A stretch of 10,263 nt of DNA from Pseudomonadota bacterium. GTDB taxonomy: Bacteria > Pseudomonadota > Gammaproteobacteria > Competibacterales > Competibacteraceae. Made by a program: the position numbers and the translations under genes. The number at the start of each line of letters is the position of its first letter. Position 1 is the first letter of the stretch. A model generated the notes under the pieces. That model was not told the origin of the DNA, did no database searches, and was given only the letters and a program-made list of their open reading frames with translations. Shown here in pieces: positions 2,116 to 10,064 of this stretch. The stretch covers positions 1 through 10,263 of the forward strand of contig JAGTSD010000049.1 in NCBI GenBank assembly GCA_018262135.1. Reading direction: 5' to 3'.

Positions 2116-2901
2116 TCAGCGAGCATGGCGGCTGATGCTGCGCGGGAAGAAGGTTTGGCGGTCGTAATCGCGGAAGCGATAAAGCTGCGCCGGCCGGCCA
2201 AAACCATCGCGCTGCCTGCCGGGCAGCTCCTCCAGCATGTCGGCCTGCATCACCCGGCGGCGGAAGGAACTCTTGTCGAGCGGCTGCTGCAAGATGATCT
2301 CGTAGATCCGCTGCAATTCCGGCAGGGTGAACTCCTCCGGCAGCAGATGCACGGCGATATGGGTGTATTCCAGCTTGGAGCGCAACCGTTCCACGGCGTC
2401 GGCCAGGATGCGGGCATGATCGAAACCCAGATCGAAGCCTACCTCGTCGCCGCGCACCCGCACCCAGCGCGCGTCCTCCTGATTGCCCAGCAGGCGCACC
2501 GACTCCGAGGCCATCAGCGCGAAATAGACCGTGGTGGCGGTCCAGCCGCGCGGGTCGCGGTCGCGGGAGCCATAGGTCCTGAGCTGCTCCAGATACGGCG
2601 CACGCACGCCGGCCTCCTCGACCAGCTTGCGCGCGGCGCAGGCATCCACCGACGCGTCGCGGCGCGGATCCAGGAATCCCCCCGGCAGCGCCCAGCAGCC
2701 CTTGAAGGGGGGCTCGGCGCGCTTGACCAGCAACGCGTGCAGGTGCTCGTCGCGCACTGTGAAAATCACCAGGTCCACGGTAAAGAACGGTTTTTCATGC
2801 GACGAGGCGTCATGGCGGCGGAGCATTTCCGCTTCGCCCGGATCGGCGGCCATCGTCGTGCCCGCTCTGTCGGGCCCGGTCGGCTCGGGGTGCCCGCTCA
2901 C
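2116..2901 (-). CDS. nrtR: NrtR-type regulator (Nudix domain plus winged helix)
   Basis: The 261-residue protein has a Nudix fold at about 36-150 and a C-terminal winged-helix region at about 178-245, with EEFTLPELQRIYEIIL followed by LDKSSFRRRV. This order is that of the NrtR family, transcriptional repressors of NAD synthesis and salvage that bind ADP-ribose-type ligands. The Nudix box (G75 to G98) is degenerate. R91 is followed by K92 instead of the catalytic Glu, and the spacing from Gly to Arg is two residues longer than canonical. That suggests ligand sensing rather than hydrolysis. The GTG start overlaps the upstream phosphatase stop as GTGA, with GGGAG 8 bases before it; ATGs at M17 and M26 are alternatives, both before the domain. 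It is the last gene of the hydrolase-phosphatase-regulator operon, which fits autoregulation. A plain Nudix hydrolase is the alternative call, less likely given the C-terminal domain. Confidence 0.85.
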   Translation of the reverse strand: MSGHPEPTGPDRAGTTMAADPGEAEMLRRHDASSHEKPFFTVDLVIFTVRDEHLHALLVKRAEPPFKGCWALPGGFLDPRRDASVDACAARKLVEEAGVRAPYLEQLRTYGSRDRDPRGWTATTVYFALMASESVRLLGNQEDARWVRVRGDEVGFDLGFDHARILADAVERLRSKLEYTHIAVHLLPEEFTLPELQRIYEIILQQPLDKSSFRRRVMQADMLEELPGRQRDGFGRPAQLYRFRDYDRQTFFPRSISRHAR

Positions 2902-3782
2902 TGGAAGATCTCCCGCAGGATTATCCCACCGTCCGCACCCAGCCCGCCGGCCAGGCGGACAAACGCCCCCAGCCCGATGTCATCCTTGTTGAACACCTGG
3001 CGCCGGGCATATTTATTCAGGGTTTGACGCAGCCGGCGCTGGACGAACGCATCTTCGAGAGGGGTGAAATCCAGCATCTCGCGCGCCACGGTCCTTAAAT
3101 CCAGCCACGCGCCGGTTTCGGCCTCCACGAACGAATCCAGGCCATCCGTGGCGACCGCCACCACCGGAAAAGCGGCCAGATCGAACTCGAACACGGCCGG
3201 CGCATCGAAGCGTTCCTGGCGGGTGCTCTCCCCGGTATCGCTCTGATAGTGGATGCTCTGCGCCGTCGCCGGCTCACCGATGGCTTCCTGGTAAAACGCC
3301 CAGCGCTCGGAGTCGAGCAGATAGGACAGATAGTAGGGCGCGTTCTCGGCGTATTCGACCCGGATCGTCGCCACCCCGCCCTCCGCATTGCGGGCGGCGA
3401 GACAGCCATCACCGTAGAGATGGACGCGCACGGTCGTCCCATCGCACCAGGCGATCAGCAGCGTGGCGTCGAGCACGGAAGGGTCGAGCCCCAAATCCCG
3501 GGCCTGCCGGGCGGCGCGGCGCACGATGCGCCGGCCCAGCGTCCAGTGGCGAACCCGCCGTTCCTCGTCGCTCGCCGGGCGGGCGACGTGGGACAGCAGC
3601 CAGCGGGCGTTCAGCGCCAGCAGGCGCGCGCCCAGATCGCTGTCGGGCGCGGCCGAGCAGCCATCGGCCAAAATGAGATGAGGAACCGGCTCCCGTCCGC
3701 ACAGGGCGTAGTCCTGGCAGAACAGATGCAGCTTGCCGATGGTGTAGTCGGCATCCACCAGGAGGATCTTTTCGCTCAGCAC
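2898..3782 (-). CDS. PP2C-type protein serine/threonine phosphatase
   Basis: This 294-residue protein shows the PP2C metal-site motifs in order: KLHLFCQDYAL with D24 (motif of the first metal Asp), LILADGCSA with D40-G41, SDLGA at 48-52, DATLLIAW at 105-112, LYGDGCLA at 123-129, VATDGLDSF at 210-218, and DDIGLGAF at 267-274. The family removes phosphate from Ser/Thr using two Mn or Mg ions. The size fits a single catalytic domain; no receptor, membrane or sensor domain is attached. I place the start at a GTG (3780-3782) that overlaps the end of the upstream hydrolase by 7 bp. The frame stays open far upstream, but only antisense-free overlap with the hydrolase gene lies there, and the recognisable protein begins LSEKILLVDADYT. 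The stop overlaps the NrtR start. No kinase is seen in the window, so the substrate is unknown. The operon position suggests a link to NAD metabolism, which is inference. Confidence 0.82.
   Translation of the reverse strand: MLSEKILLVDADYTIGKLHLFCQDYALCGREPVPHLILADGCSAAPDSDLGARLLALNARWLLSHVARPASDEERRVRHWTLGRRIVRRAARQARDLGLDPSVLDATLLIAWCDGTTVRVHLYGDGCLAARNAEGGVATIRVEYAENAPYYLSYLLDSERWAFYQEAIGEPATAQSIHYQSDTGESTRQERFDAPAVFEFDLAAFPVVAVATDGLDSFVEAETGAWLDLRTVAREMLDFTPLEDAFVQRRLRQTLNKYARRQVFNKDDIGLGAFVRLAGGLGADGGIILREIFQ
2910..2914 (-). promoter_or_regulatory. Ribosome binding site supporting the GTG start of nrtR
   Basis: GGGAG on the minus strand lies 8 bases before GTG 2899-2901. It favours that start over the internal ATGs at 2853 and 2826. 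It sits inside the last codons of the phosphatase gene, as expected for a translationally coupled pair. Confidence 0.6.
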
Positions 3783-4573
3783 AGGAACTCTGCCGCCCTG
3801 ACGGTCTTCATGCCGAGCTGGCGCAGGTCGCTGAGGAATTGCCGCGCCAGGTCTTCGAAGCCGGGTACCGGCGAACTGGTGTCCTCGATCAGCACCAGCT
3901 TGCGGATGCCCTCCGGGCCCATGCACTCGGCGATGTCGCGGACCGTGTTGGCGACGCAGTGCGACAGCGCCTGGCCCGACAGCGCTACCACATCGGCGTT
4001 TTGCAGGGTCTGGATCAGCCGGGTGTTGAGCTGGGTGCGGGGATCGTCGGGATCGGGCACGTCGGCCCGCACCGCCGAGTAGTGCTCGGTCCAGGGGTTG
4101 TGGCCCTTGGTCACGTAGCCCACCCGGGCGAAGCAGGTTTCCTCCCAGCGCCGCAGCGCCCCGGCGATCACCGGCATCACGCCGTGGCCCCAGGTGCCGA
4201 CCAGGCAATGCGGTGGCCAGAGGGTCAGGGTATAGCGGCCGTTGTCGCGCAGGGCGCGCACGTAGGCCAGCGCCCGCGCCTGATGTTCCGGCTTGAAAGC
4301 CCGCCATGCGCCCTGCTCCACGTCGGCAACGGAGATCTGGGTGAAGGGCGGCGGCGACTGGCCGCTGGCGTCCCGCCAGAAAACCGGATGGGAAATATCC
4401 ACCAGTTGGTGGGTATCGAGGGTGACGTGAATGGCAGCGATGCGCTCGCCCAGGCGATCCAGCAAGCCCGCCAGGCGTTCGGCATCCGCGCCCGCGCCCG
4501 GTACCGGCAGCGCCGCCCCCGGCGTATCGCTGAAATCGTTCTGCGGATCGATGATCAGGAATTCCAGGCGCAT
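3776..4573 (-). CDS. Isochorismatase-family cysteine hydrolase, probable nicotinamidase
   Basis: The 265-residue protein begins MRLEFLIIDPQNDF, the classic start of the nicotinamidase/isochorismatase fold, with catalytic Asp D9. Other expected residues are present: candidate metal ligands D53 and H55 in LDTH and H122 in WPPHCLVGTWGH, catalytic Lys K156 in VTKGHNPWTEHYSA, and nucleophile C206 in GQALSHCVANTV. Nicotinamidase deamidates nicotinamide to nicotinate and feeds NAD salvage. At 265 residues it is longer than E. coli PncA, so it belongs to a divergent subgroup and another amide substrate is possible. The ATG at 4573 is chosen because GAGGAG (4581-4586) sits 7 bases upstream; the frame runs open to 4771, but that stretch covers the operator region. 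It is the first gene of an operon with a PP2C phosphatase and NrtR, and divergent from a sirtuin, which makes nicotinamide. This context is the main support for the substrate. Confidence 0.8.
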   Translation of the reverse strand: MRLEFLIIDPQNDFSDTPGAALPVPGAGADAERLAGLLDRLGERIAAIHVTLDTHQLVDISHPVFWRDASGQSPPPFTQISVADVEQGAWRAFKPEHQARALAYVRALRDNGRYTLTLWPPHCLVGTWGHGVMPVIAGALRRWEETCFARVGYVTKGHNPWTEHYSAVRADVPDPDDPRTQLNTRLIQTLQNADVVALSGQALSHCVANTVRDIAECMGPEGIRKLVLIEDTSSPVPGFEDLARQFLSDLRQLGMKTVRAAEFLC

Positions 4574-4580
4574 GGCAGTT

Positions 4581-4586
4581 CTCCTC
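4581..4586 (-). promoter_or_regulatory. Ribosome binding site of the cysteine hydrolase gene
   Basis: GAGGAG on the minus strand lies 7 bases before ATG 4571-4573. It decides the start in favour of MRLEFLIIDPQNDF rather than the upstream in-frame ATG near 4771. Confidence 0.8.
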
Positions 4587-4597
4587 GGCAGGGTTCT

Positions 4598-4616
4598 TAG
4601 TGGCTTGGCGCCACTA
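4598..4616. promoter_or_regulatory. Candidate NrtR operator 2 (inverted repeat)
   Basis: TAGTGGC (4598-4604), a 5-base spacer and GCCACTA (4610-4616) form a perfect 7-bp inverted repeat. It has the same layout and nearly the same half-sites as the palindrome at 4627-4649; the one difference per arm is symmetric (T to G, A to C). It lies just downstream of a TATAAA -10-like box for the minus strand operon, where a bound repressor would block transcription. That NrtR is the binder is inferred from the adjacent operon. Confidence 0.55.
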
Positions 4617-4624
4617 TTGTGGAT

Positions 4625-4651
4625 TTTATAGTTGCAAAAAGCAACTATATT
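4625..4651. promoter_or_regulatory. Possible divergent -10 boxes overlapping operator 1
   Basis: On the minus strand TATAAA (4625-4630) resembles a -10 box for the hydrolase operon. On the plus strand TATATT (4646-4651) could serve the sirtuin operon. Each overlaps an outer edge of the 4627-4649 palindrome. No good -35 box is seen at 17 bases for either, which is tolerable for activator-dependent or weak promoters but lowers confidence. Confidence 0.35.
4627..4649. promoter_or_regulatory. Candidate NrtR operator 1 (inverted repeat)
   Basis: TATAGTTGC (4627-4635), AAAAA and GCAACTATA (4641-4649) form a perfect 9-bp inverted repeat, 23 bp in all, in an AT-rich island between divergent genes. 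NrtR regulators are known to bind palindromes of about 20 bp upstream of NAD genes. The centre is 31 bp, about three helical turns, from that of the second palindrome, so bound dimers would lie on the same face. A stem-loop in RNA is an alternative reading, but no T-run terminator follows. Confidence 0.65.
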
Positions 4652-4736
4652 TTCCCATGCGCCGGCGCCATGCCCGGCTGACGCGCGGCGTGCTATGCTG
4701 AAAACCTTCCTGTTTGCCGTGAAGATTCGCGCCGCC

Positions 4737-5510
4737 ATGAACTCTTCCCCGATTCCCGCCGAACTCATCACCCGCCTGCGCGCCGCCCGCCGGGTCGCCG
4801 TGCTGACTGGCGCCGGTATCTCCGCCGAGAGCGGGGTGCCGACTTTCCGCGAAGCCCAGACCGGGCTGTGGGCGCGCTACAACCCGGAAGAGCTGGCCAC
4901 GCCGGACGCCTTCCGCCGCAATCCGAAGCTGGTCTGGGAGTGGTACGCCTGGCGGCAGGAGCGGGTGCGGCAGGCCGAGCCGAATCCCGGCCATCTCGCC
5001 CTGGTGGAGATGGAGCGACGCATCGCCGCGTTCACCCTGATCACCCAGAACGTGGACGGCCTGCACCGGCGGGCCGGCAGTCATCAGGTGCTGGAACTGC
5101 ACGGCAACCTGTTCCGCGCCAAATGCTTCGACGAGGACCGGCCGGTGGAAAACTGGCCGGACAGCGACGAAATCCCGCCGCGCTGCCCGCGCTGTGGTGC
5201 GCTGCTGCGGCCGGACGTGGTCTGGTTCGGGGAAATGCTGCCGGCAGGCGCGCTGCGGGCGGCGGAACAGGCGGCTGCGACCGCCGAGGTCTTCTTCAGC
5301 ATCGGCACCTCGGCCCTGGTCTACCCCGCCGCCGAACTACCGTTCATCGCGCTCCGGGCCGGGGCGACGGTGGTGGAGATCAATCCCCAGCCGACCCCGC
5401 TCAGCTCGCGGGTCAGCTTCAGCGTGCAGGGACCGGCCGGCGAGATTCTGCCGGCCCTGGTCGAGCAGGTCTGGGGCGGTTCGGCCTCGGCGGGCGGGGT
5501 CGGCGCATGA
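4737..5510 (+). CDS. cobB: NAD-dependent protein deacylase, sirtuin family (CobB/SIRT5-like)
   Basis: The 257-residue protein has the full sirtuin signature: TGAGISAESGVPTFR at 24-38, TQNVDGLH at 103-110, the catalytic His H122 in ELHGN, and GTSALVYPAA plus VVEINPQPT in the Rossmann part. Sirtuins cleave NAD to remove acyl groups from lysine, releasing nicotinamide and O-acyl-ADP-ribose. Y70 and R73 (EWYAWRQ) match the Tyr-x-x-Arg pair of class III sirtuins that prefer succinyl, malonyl or glutaryl lysine. The zinc module looks reduced: C130, C150 and C153 are present, but KCFDEDRP has no second Cys after C130. The start is the ATG at 4737, close to the domain; its Shine-Dalgarno match is weak, and in-frame ATGs at 4695 and 4632 are less likely because they reach into the control region. 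It overlaps the next gene by ATGA and is divergent from the probable nicotinamidase, which could consume its product. Confidence 0.9.
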   Translation: MNSSPIPAELITRLRAARRVAVLTGAGISAESGVPTFREAQTGLWARYNPEELATPDAFRRNPKLVWEWYAWRQERVRQAEPNPGHLALVEMERRIAAFTLITQNVDGLHRRAGSHQVLELHGNLFRAKCFDEDRPVENWPDSDEIPPRCPRCGALLRPDVVWFGEMLPAGALRAAEQAAATAEVFFSIGTSALVYPAAELPFIALRAGATVVEINPQPTPLSSRVSFSVQGPAGEILPALVEQVWGGSASAGGVGA

Positions 5511-6268
5511 GTCGCGAGCCCCGCCCGGAACGGCTGACGCTCGCCGACGGGACGATGCTGGCCTGCCACCGCCGGTCCGGCGCCAGTCCAGGCGTGCTGT
5601 TTCTGGGCGGTTTCACCTCCGACATGACCGGCGCCAAGGCGACCACGCTGGATGTCTGGTGCCGGGGGCGCGGCCAGGCGTTCGTGCGCTTCGACTACTC
5701 CGGCCATGGCGCGTCGGGCGGCCGGTTCGCCGATGGCACCATCGGCGGCTGGGCGGAAGAAGCCGTCGCGGTGCTGGACCGGTTGACCGAGGGGCCGCAG
5801 ATCCTGGTCGGGTCCTCGATGGGGGCCTGGGTGATGCTGCTGGTGGCGCTGGCGCGACCGGAACGGATCGCCGGGCTGCTCGGCCTGGCCTGCGCGGTGG
5901 ATTTCACCCGCTACCTGTTGTGGGACCGATTGGACGAGCGCCTGCGGGAACGCCTGCGGCGCGAGCGGGTGATTTCCCTGCCCTCCCCCTACGGCGAGCC
6001 CTACATCATCGCCCTGAACCTGATCGAGGAAGCGGAACGGCATCAGCTGCTGGACGGGCCGGAACTGCCGATCCGCGGGCCGGTGCGCTTGATTCACGGC
6101 ATGGGCGACGCCGACGTGCCCTGGCGGATCAGCCTGGAAGTCGCCGGGAAGATCGCCAGTCCCGACGTGCGGGTGATCCTGGTCAAGGACGGCGAACACA
6201 CCCTGTCGCGGGACCAGGATCTGCGGCTGCTGACCCGCACCCTGGGGGAGATGGTGGAGGGGCGGTAG
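5507..6268 (+). CDS. Alpha/beta hydrolase, ABHD10-like (putative thioesterase/esterase)
   Basis: The 253-residue protein is a compact alpha/beta hydrolase. LFLGGFTSDMTGAKA near 31-45 forms the oxyanion strand, and FDYSGHGASGG follows at 62-72. The nucleophile is S104 in GSSMGAW; the acid is probably D201 in HGMGDADVPW, and the base H231 in DGEHTLSR. The pattern of GGFxSDMxGxKA, a GSSxGxW elbow and HGMxDxxVPW is that of the ABHD10 group, whose mitochondrial members act as S-depalmitoylases and acyl-glucuronide esterases; the bacterial substrate is not known. The ATG lies in ATGA, overlapping the sirtuin stop, so the two are translationally coupled and may both act in deacylation; that link is inference. 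Its 3' end overlaps the convergent queG end by 86 bp. Confidence 0.82.
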   Translation: MSREPRPERLTLADGTMLACHRRSGASPGVLFLGGFTSDMTGAKATTLDVWCRGRGQAFVRFDYSGHGASGGRFADGTIGGWAEEAVAVLDRLTEGPQILVGSSMGAWVMLLVALARPERIAGLLGLACAVDFTRYLLWDRLDERLRERLRRERVISLPSPYGEPYIIALNLIEEAERHQLLDGPELPIRGPVRLIHGMGDADVPWRISLEVAGKIASPDVRVILVKDGEHTLSRDQDLRLLTRTLGEMVEGR

Positions 6269-8902: not shown

Positions 8903-9439
8903 ATGTCCGAATTCCCGCTCGATTCCGCTGCCGCCACCGAACGCCTCGGCGCGCGGCTGGCCCGGGTTCTCCAGCCCGGCTGCGTGCTGTATCTGCGCGG
9001 CGAACTGGGCGCCGGCAAGACTACGCTGGCGCGCGGCCTGCTGCATGGCCTGGGCCATCGCGGCACGGTGAAAAGCCCGACCTACACGCTGGTGGAGCCG
9101 TATCAGATCGGCGCGTGGCGGCTGTTTCACTGGGATTTGTACCGGCTCAGCGATCCGGAGGAACTGGAGTTTCTGGGTCTGCGCGATCAACTGGACGGCG
9201 AAGCGGTGCTGTTGATCGAGTGGCCGGAGCGCGGCCAGGGGGAACTGCCAGCGGCGGATGTGGAGATCGGGCTGGACTATGCCGGGGCGGGGCGAAACTG
9301 CCGGCTGGAGGCCCGTTCCGAGACGGGAAGCCGGTTGCTGGCGCGGCTGGGCCGGCCCCGCGCCGCCCGGTCCGGCTGCGAACCGCCCGGTGCGCCTGTT
9401 ACCATGCTTTCGGCTGAAACTTCGCGTCGTTCAGAATGA
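8903..9439 (+). CDS. tsaE: tRNA t6A biosynthesis ATPase TsaE
   Basis: TsaE is the ATPase partner of TsaB and TsaD in making N6-threonylcarbamoyladenosine at position 37 of ANN-decoding tRNAs. The 178-residue protein shows Walker A GELGAGKTT at 33-41, SPTYTLVEPY at 58-67, HWDLYRL at 76-82 and LLIEWPER at 103-110, in the usual order. The family is normally about 150-160 residues. The last 28 or so residues here (after LLARLG) are low-complexity and probably read-through into the flanking DNA, overlapping the convergent downstream gene by 41 bp. The ATG lies 3 bp after the restored nnr stop with a poor Shine-Dalgarno match, suggesting coupling to nnr translation. In many gammaproteobacteria amiB follows; it is absent here. 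Confidence 0.93.
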   Translation: MSEFPLDSAAATERLGARLARVLQPGCVLYLRGELGAGKTTLARGLLHGLGHRGTVKSPTYTLVEPYQIGAWRLFHWDLYRLSDPEELEFLGLRDQLDGEAVLLIEWPERGQGELPAADVEIGLDYAGAGRNCRLEARSETGSRLLARLGRPRAARSGCEPPGAPVTMLSAETSRRSE

Positions 9440-10064
9440 TGACGCTGTCGCCTGACTGGGCCAGCACGAACAGGCCCTGCCGGTAGGCATGGCGGGCCAC
9501 GTCCCTGGGTACGACCATTGCCGCCACCGCTCCCATCGCCCGCACGTCGGCATAGCGCGGCAACATCTGCTTGAATTTGGCCAGCCGTTCCAGGTGTTCG
9601 TTCACGTCGGCGATGGTCAGCTTGCTCTTGACTTCGACCAGGATCGCTTCGGCGTCGTTGACCACCAGCAGGTCAATCTGGATGCCTTCTTCGCCGCGAT
9701 CCACTTCCACGTCAGGATAGATTTCATGGACGGCGATCCCGCGCGCCTGGAACAGCCGCACCACCGCCGGCTTGACCAGCCCTTCGACGAATTCCCCCAG
9801 CCGGTTGCCCAGCTTGCCCAACTGGTCGTTGAGTTGCTTCAACCGCCGGTCGGTATCTTTCATCAACCGGTCGGTTTCCTGAAACTGTTGCGTAGTTTCC
9901 TGAAACTTCCGGTCGGTCTCCTGAAACTTCCGGTCGGTGTCCTGAAACTTCCGGTCGGTGTCCTGAAACTTCCGGTCGGTCTCCTGAAACCGCTGGGCGG
10001 TGTCCTTCTGGGCTTCCGCGACTTCGCGGAACAGGGCCCATACCTCCTCTAATGTTGTAGCCAT
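9399..10064 (-). CDS. Coiled-coil protein with PD-(D/E)XK nuclease-like domain (DUF3782-like)
   Basis: The 221-residue protein has two parts. Residues about 18-80 form a coiled coil of near-perfect heptads of the form RKFQ(E/D)TD. Residues about 85-220 carry a PD-(D/E)XK-like core: D131 in IQIDLLVVND and E144-x-K146 in ILVEVKSKL, with further conserved-looking Lys and Glu in NEHLERLAKFKQML. Such coiled-coil plus restriction-endonuclease-like proteins (DUF3782 group) are common in Chloroflexi, cyanobacteria and environmental proteobacteria; their function is unknown to me. The ATG at 10064 has a perfect AGGAGG 8 bases upstream. No membrane segment or signal peptide is visible. The gene is single, converges on tsaE and overlaps its end. 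Its position after tsaE, where amiB is often found, suggests insertion of accessory DNA. Confidence 0.75.
   Translation of the reverse strand: MATTLEEVWALFREVAEAQKDTAQRFQETDRKFQDTDRKFQDTDRKFQETDRKFQETTQQFQETDRLMKDTDRRLKQLNDQLGKLGNRLGEFVEGLVKPAVVRLFQARGIAVHEIYPDVEVDRGEEGIQIDLLVVNDAEAILVEVKSKLTIADVNEHLERLAKFKQMLPRYADVRAMGAVAAMVVPRDVARHAYRQGLFVLAQSGDSVIILNDAKFQPKAW
9878..10003 (-). repeat. 21-bp tandem repeat array encoding coiled-coil heptads
   Basis: Read on the plus strand, units beginning CCTGAAACTTCCGGTCGGT start at 9899, 9920, 9941 and 9962, spaced exactly 21 bp and differing mainly at one base (G or C before the last T). Diverged units flank them at 9878 and 9983. Each unit encodes one heptad of the form RKFQ(E/D)TD. 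The DNA-level identity points to recent unit duplication and likely copy-number variation in frame. Confidence 0.85.

Follow-up and report, generated by a model that had tools for sequence, protein, structure and literature searches.

Here we describe a group of five genes on a 10,263-nucleotide contig (the window) of a Competibacteraceae metagenome-assembled genome (MAG), in which genes for the regulator NrtR, a PP2C-type phosphatase and a cysteine hydrolase face, across one control region, genes for a sirtuin and an ABHD10-like alpha/beta hydrolase. The group is probably a lineage-specific unit for the consumption and recycling of nicotinamide adenine dinucleotide (NAD) under NrtR control, a variant of the NrtR regulon and not a new kind of system. 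The case is built on what can be read from the letters: gene order, a palindromic box, the joint presence and loss of that box with NrtR, conserved catalytic residues, and the exchange of the cysteine hydrolase with the canonical nicotinamidase PncA. The genome (2.59 Mb in 469 contigs, 75.5% complete; the window is its contig C384) is fragmentary, and most genomes compared here are MAGs.

The five open reading frames (ORFs) lie in two head-to-head operons. On the minus strand, the leftward operon encodes NrtR (2116–2901), PP2C (2898–3782, with a GTG start at 3782) and the cysteine hydrolase (3776–4573); on the plus strand, the rightward operon encodes the sirtuin (4737–5510) and the ABHD10-like hydrolase (5507–6268). 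NrtR and PP2C overlap by 4 bp, PP2C and the cysteine hydrolase by 7 bp, and the sirtuin and its partner by 4 bp, and a gap of 163 bp (4574–4736) separates the operons. The ORF frames agree exactly with the five genes and three overlaps of the original prediction. The same order recurs in relatives at 53–92% protein identity, indicating that the arrangement is more than chance.

A single control region shared by both operons had also been proposed, and it now contains a candidate operator. This is the palindrome TATAGTTGC-AAAAA-GCAACTATA (4627–4649); the window has no other perfect palindrome whose arms reach 9 and whose spacer is 3–8 bp. Its left half shares bases with a weak sigma-70-like −10 site. 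Located next to NrtR's own operon, it is, on sequence evidence, probably the NrtR operator. The loose pattern WNTAGTTG-N7-CAACTANW has a single site in the genome and its reversed control has none.

The presence of this box tracks that of NrtR. Boxes were scored as matches out of 14 positions to TTAGTTG-N7-CAACTAA in the 19 Competibacteraceae genomes with a head-to-head sirtuin, whose partner is the cysteine hydrolase in 15, PP2C in three (G032, G035 and G355) and NrtR in one (G008). A box of at least 12 precedes the sirtuin in all 11 genomes with an NrtR ortholog (at least 67% identity) versus 1 of 8 without (Fisher p 1.6e-4, with related genomes counted singly); of 3000 random 320-bp stretches drawn from these loci without removing the real boxes, 39 score as high. 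Five NrtR-less genomes (G024, G027, G028, G032 and G035) carry degraded relics, scoring 9 to 11, at a similar distance. The NrtR-less rows are scattered over the sirtuin tree (G032/G035 beside G017; G024/G028; G027/G034/G355; and the G036 group), a scatter consistent with repeated loss of NrtR, though only 11 of the 28 inner branches are well supported.

The box is also found upstream of the cysteine hydrolase, at 20 of 80 loci with a score of at least 12, and for none of them was any of 200 single-base shuffles as good. Eleven are Competibacteraceae loci and the others are L057 (Thiotrichales), L058 (Ca. Venteria), L092, L093, L096, L097, L101, L107 and L109; NrtR lies opposite the boxed hydrolase at L092, L093, L096, L097, L101 and L107, but not at L109. 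In G008, NrtR directly faces the sirtuin with the box between them, and no nicotinamidase gene is found at that place.

The regulator combines a Nudix-like domain (PF00293, 54.2 bits, cut-off 21.1) with the NrtR winged helix (PF21906, 90.2 bits, cut-off 27), its best match in the PDB being 3gz5 (E 1.4e-51), and is predicted to repress both operons. Against the Nudix consensus GX5EX7REUXEEXGU given in PMC4666351, its motif, compared by eye, reads GGFLDPRRDASVDACAARKLVEEAGV, with RK replacing RE and the first Glu displaced; judged from these residues the catalytic motif is impaired, as is characteristic of NrtR. At loci L229–L237 and L241 (e.g. L230 7465–11615), Competibacteraceae genomes carry a second gene of the NrtR family, with about 45% identity, that faces genes for a DnaJ-like protein (weak PF00226), a protein of about 314 amino acids (vWA-like by eye) and an adenylosuccinate synthetase paralogue; several of these loci have a related palindrome, such as TTATTTG-N7-CAAATAA.

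The cysteine hydrolase is probably a nicotinamidase. D9, D53, H55, H62, H122, K156 and C206 are invariant in 18 aligned proteins, and we take D9, K156 and C206 to be the Asp/Lys/Cys triad and D53, H55, H62 and H122 the Asp-His-His-His metal site, the combination expected of PncA. Its structure model (pLDDT, predicted local distance difference test, 89.7) appears closest to nicotinamidases, as the first 16 VIA-align rows are all nicotinamidases or pyrazinamidases. Furthermore, canonical PncA was found in 6 of 13 Competibacteraceae genomes without the hydrolase versus 0 of 24 with it (all genomes but G355 and G356 were searched genome-wide for the hydrolase), a mutual exclusion that, together with the residues and the model, upholds the assignment made in the original prediction. 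The family is a large one: of 8000 scored candidates, 4382 reach E ≤ 1e-10. Some sources already call relatives nicotinamidases, a name that the exchange with PncA supports. Compared with PncA and yeast Pnc1, the window protein (265 amino acids) has an insertion before the WPPHC motif, is only 22–26% identical to the 16 matched proteins and falls below the Isochorismatase cut-off (PF00857, 21.1 versus 27 bits), a domain that is present in some close relatives. Three unannotated uncultured phage records (LR745208, LR756511 and LR756500; 462–595 kb) also encode relatives of this hydrolase, at 37–49% identity.

The remaining three proteins, like NrtR, score above their Pfam cut-offs, in agreement with the identities first suggested. 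The sirtuin (PF02146, 178.5 bits, cut-off 24; NF001753, 304.8 bits, cut-off 243) has Tyr70, Arg73 and His122 invariant in 31 rows; the last is the catalytic His, and the Tyr-x-x-Arg pair is what we take to be the class mark of SIRT5/CobB-like sirtuins, presumably pointing to acidic acyl substrates such as succinyl. In each of the 28 rows printed, the window included, its zinc site (5124–5198) is CxxE...CxxC and not a set of four cysteines. The alpha/beta hydrolase (Hydrolase_4, 41 bits, cut-off 27) matches over its whole length the mycophenolic acid acyl-glucuronide esterase 6ny9 (E 4.5e-60), and its aligned Ser104 and Asp203 (27 of 27) and His231 (26 of 26) are invariant, placing it in the ABHD10 family; it differs from ABHD10 in being bacterial and encoded beside a sirtuin. 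In the phosphatase (PF13672, PP2C_2, 48.3 bits, cut-off 24), Asp24, 40, 213, 267 and 268 are invariant in the 25 rows covering them, and a PDB sequence search up to E 1 returned no match.

Mechanistically, we favour, with moderate confidence, an NAD-turnover module whose two operons are both repressed by NrtR at the shared palindrome. The ligand of NrtR, the direction of its response and the activities of all the enzymes are what we infer, by analogy with published repressors: ADP-ribose is described as releasing the NrtR proteins of S. oneidensis and Synechocystis (PMC4666351) and of M. smegmatis (PMC6800001), and P. aeruginosa NrtR is described as repressing two divergent operons, nadD2-nrtR facing pncA-pncB1-nadE (PMC6363681). 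Accumulation of ADP-ribose upon NAD cleavage would release NrtR from the palindrome and raise the sirtuin and the ABHD10-like hydrolase on one side, and the nicotinamidase, PP2C and NrtR itself on the other. Sirtuin chemistry yields nicotinamide and O-acyl-ADP-ribose. Deacylating protein lysines, the window enzyme would convert NAD into these two products; the nicotinamidase would remove nicotinamide, a sirtuin inhibitor, as nicotinate, to be salvaged by genes elsewhere, and fresh NrtR would limit the response. Feedback through ADP-ribose onto the sirtuin operon, and any part that PP2C and the ABHD10-like enzyme may take in the circuit, are conjectural. The original statement that the five genes cover one cycle is too strong, since these two proteins have no demonstrated place in it and nicotinate would need genes elsewhere, such as the NAPRT-family match on contig C376 of the same genome.

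Within the family, the sirtuin (E ≤ 1e-60) is present in 31 of 39 genomes, and in 27 of these 31 the ABHD10-like gene shares its strand and lies no more than 3 kb away. Four of the 27 (G012, G027, G034 and G355) have a photolyase, named by eye, on the opposite strand between the two genes; the four genomes lacking the pair are G035, at a contig end, and G010, G014 and G020, whose sirtuin is more distant (61–69% identity). The full five-gene set is found in 10 of the 39 genomes (G000, G001, G003, G004, G005, G007, G012, G019, G022 and G031; with an inserted ORF in G012), while a contig edge cuts the sirtuin locus in G017 and G018.

Several results weigh against common control by NrtR. At the level of the box, the cut-off of 12 was set after the scores were seen; in G036, a genome 83% complete, a perfect 14 of 14 box precedes the sirtuin (L123 6525–6545) but an NrtR ortholog was not found; G017 has NrtR and its box scores 11 (this genome stands outside the 19, its contig ending at the sirtuin, whose start lies opposite PP2C by eye). 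G006 (L034) carries NrtR-PP2C-hydrolase without a box, and G011, G021, G026 and G030 an NrtR-PP2C pair without a box upstream. With one mismatch allowed, the pattern has 13 sites in 40 relatives versus 30 for the reversed control, and alone is therefore unspecific genome-wide; six sites lie at the module (G002, G003, G005, G007, G008 and G022), one beside a second NrtR gene (G019:C36) and six at other genes (two in G019, one in G023, two in G024 and one in G038). At the level of the regulator, the window NrtR scores 232.5 bits versus the NCBIfam equivalog cut-off of 400 (NF050029), so we classify it by its domains and not as that equivalog; one NrtR-family member is described as responding to NAD and not to ADP-ribose (PMC4666351); and if ADP-ribose releases NrtR, the sirtuin would come under positive feedback, which is an unusual design. 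Finally, the sirtuin is unlinked and without a box in 10 of 31 genomes (G002, G006, G010, G011, G014, G020, G021, G025, G026 and G029), five of which (G002, G006, G011, G021 and G026) have an NrtR ortholog, and outside Competibacteraceae neither sirtuin nor ABHD10-like gene was found at 56 hydrolase loci, nor any sirtuin at 27 gammaproteobacterial NrtR loci.

The hydrolase loci are 80 retained from 285 relatives, with flanks of up to 7 kb that are often cut by contig ends, and the NrtR loci are the 27 best-scoring from 44 genomes with matches. Neighbours at the 56 outside hydrolase loci, typed with profiles trained on these same loci, are NrtR (14), vWA-like (13), kinase-like (8), NadM (7), PP2C (7) and NadE (6) genes; the 27 NrtR loci include one hydrolase and one kinase-like gene. 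These counts suggest that NrtR with the hydrolase is the wider association, and that the sirtuin branch is a Competibacteraceae addition. The original prediction had set beforehand that rare adjacency of the five families elsewhere would speak against it, and with the full set in 10 of 39 family genomes and no sirtuin at either set of outside loci, they are indeed rarely adjacent. As for the sirtuin-ABHD10 pairing, a search of 321 genomes of the class (18 with an ABHD10 homolog at E ≤ 1e-40) did not find it in other lineages; only three, all Competibacteraceae (G000, G011 and G021), had a sirtuin within 1.5 kb of the homolog (78–100% identity). Separately, on a Variovorax plasmid (L338, NZ_LR594667.1 632565–647398), a NUDIX-domain gene matching the NrtR profile faces the hydrolase among macro domain, Nudix, nucleoside 2-deoxyribosyltransferase-like, NAD kinase and vWA-like genes. 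At L060, L065, L067, L071, L074, L076, L079 and L082, the hydrolase has a kinase-like gene in its neighbourhood, in most cases accompanied by vWA-like and PP2C genes; the titles of these records range from Desulfobacteraceae to archaeal MAGs, and some may be misassigned.

This distribution, both the unlinked sirtuins and their absence outside the family, is what plain co-location would produce, with NrtR controlling the nicotinamidase operon, as it does in other bacteria, and the sirtuin and its partner merely sharing the promoter region without functional coupling. We consider this the most serious alternative, albeit an unlikely one: it sits poorly with G008, where the box is retained between NrtR and the sirtuin although the nicotinamidase is not there, and with the close one-strand pairing of sirtuin and ABHD10-like gene in most sirtuin-bearing genomes.

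A more elaborate form of NrtR control would assign the ABHD10-like hydrolase the splitting of O-acyl-ADP-ribose into ADP-ribose, the presumed NrtR ligand; the closest relative of this enzyme with a solved structure carries the name acyl-glucuronide esterase and takes an acyl group off a sugar acid. The sirtuin circuit would then be self-reporting, a version we regard as doubtful: every deacylation event would feed a signal back to the operator of the sirtuin operon as the nicotinamidase disposes of nicotinamide, giving a dedicated route that links sirtuin catalysis to a transcription factor.

The vWA-PP2C-kinase triads at relatives of the hydrolase, which we take to be of the TerY-P type, raise the alternative that the leftward operon is mainly left over from a phosphorylation-signalling module (vWA, PP2C, kinase) with NAD status as its input and the sirtuin as a side product. 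The outside neighbour counts for these three families, at loci many of which are cut by contig ends, agree with it, and the window shares with the triads a PP2C gene. The window, however, carries PP2C only, with neither a vWA nor a kinase gene, and the NrtR, NadE and NadM neighbours point to NAD metabolism, making this reading very improbable. A defence system was rejected, as none of ten tested proteins (five from the window and five from other loci) matches a PADLOC model, a result that also counts against the signalling remnant. Least probable of all is a direct loop in which the sirtuin deacylates Lys176 in the hinge of NrtR, so that NAD would set NrtR activity through acylation instead of or besides ADP-ribose: M. 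smegmatis NrtR is described as acetylated at K134 in LVAkLSYTNIG, where the window protein reads LRSKLEYTHIA by eye with a lysine invariant in 17 aligned Competibacteraceae NrtRs, but deletion of cobB is described as leaving that acetylation unchanged and the lysine as widely conserved, and hence no mark of this locus (PMC6800001).

Compared with known NrtR regulons (P. aeruginosa, Shewanella and the nadABC genes of M. smegmatis), the NrtR-controlled module proposed here shares an NrtR-family repressor, a palindrome in a divergent control region and a nicotinamidase target, as described in PMC6363681 and PMC6800001; it differs in its sirtuin and ABHD10-like side and in PP2C, and has no nadD, pncB or nadE in the cluster. 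Our literature search found no published description of the five-gene set, nor of an NrtR facing a sirtuin, a search that did not cover the main NrtR survey (Rodionov 2008). Were the sirtuin indeed in the NrtR regulon, this lineage, which includes wastewater bacteria, would regulate protein deacylation as an output of NAD status, and control of the sirtuin level would become experimentally testable. Sirtuin production may be tied to cellular NAD turnover, and the sirtuin/ABHD10-like pair offers a handle on a possible bacterial breakdown of O-acyl-ADP-ribose.

Across the window, no RNA families or tRNA were found. Downstream of the module lie a queG-type gene, named by eye, on the minus strand, and NAD(P)H-hydrate epimerase/dehydratase and TsaE genes on the plus strand. 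A minus-strand ORF at 9399–10064 encodes repeated QETDRKFQ-like heptads with weak, sub-cut-off matches to DUF3782 and PD-(D/E)XK nuclease, and another at 449–2023, also on the minus strand, encodes an AAA-like ATPase (AAA_35, 30.3 bits versus a cut-off of 27).

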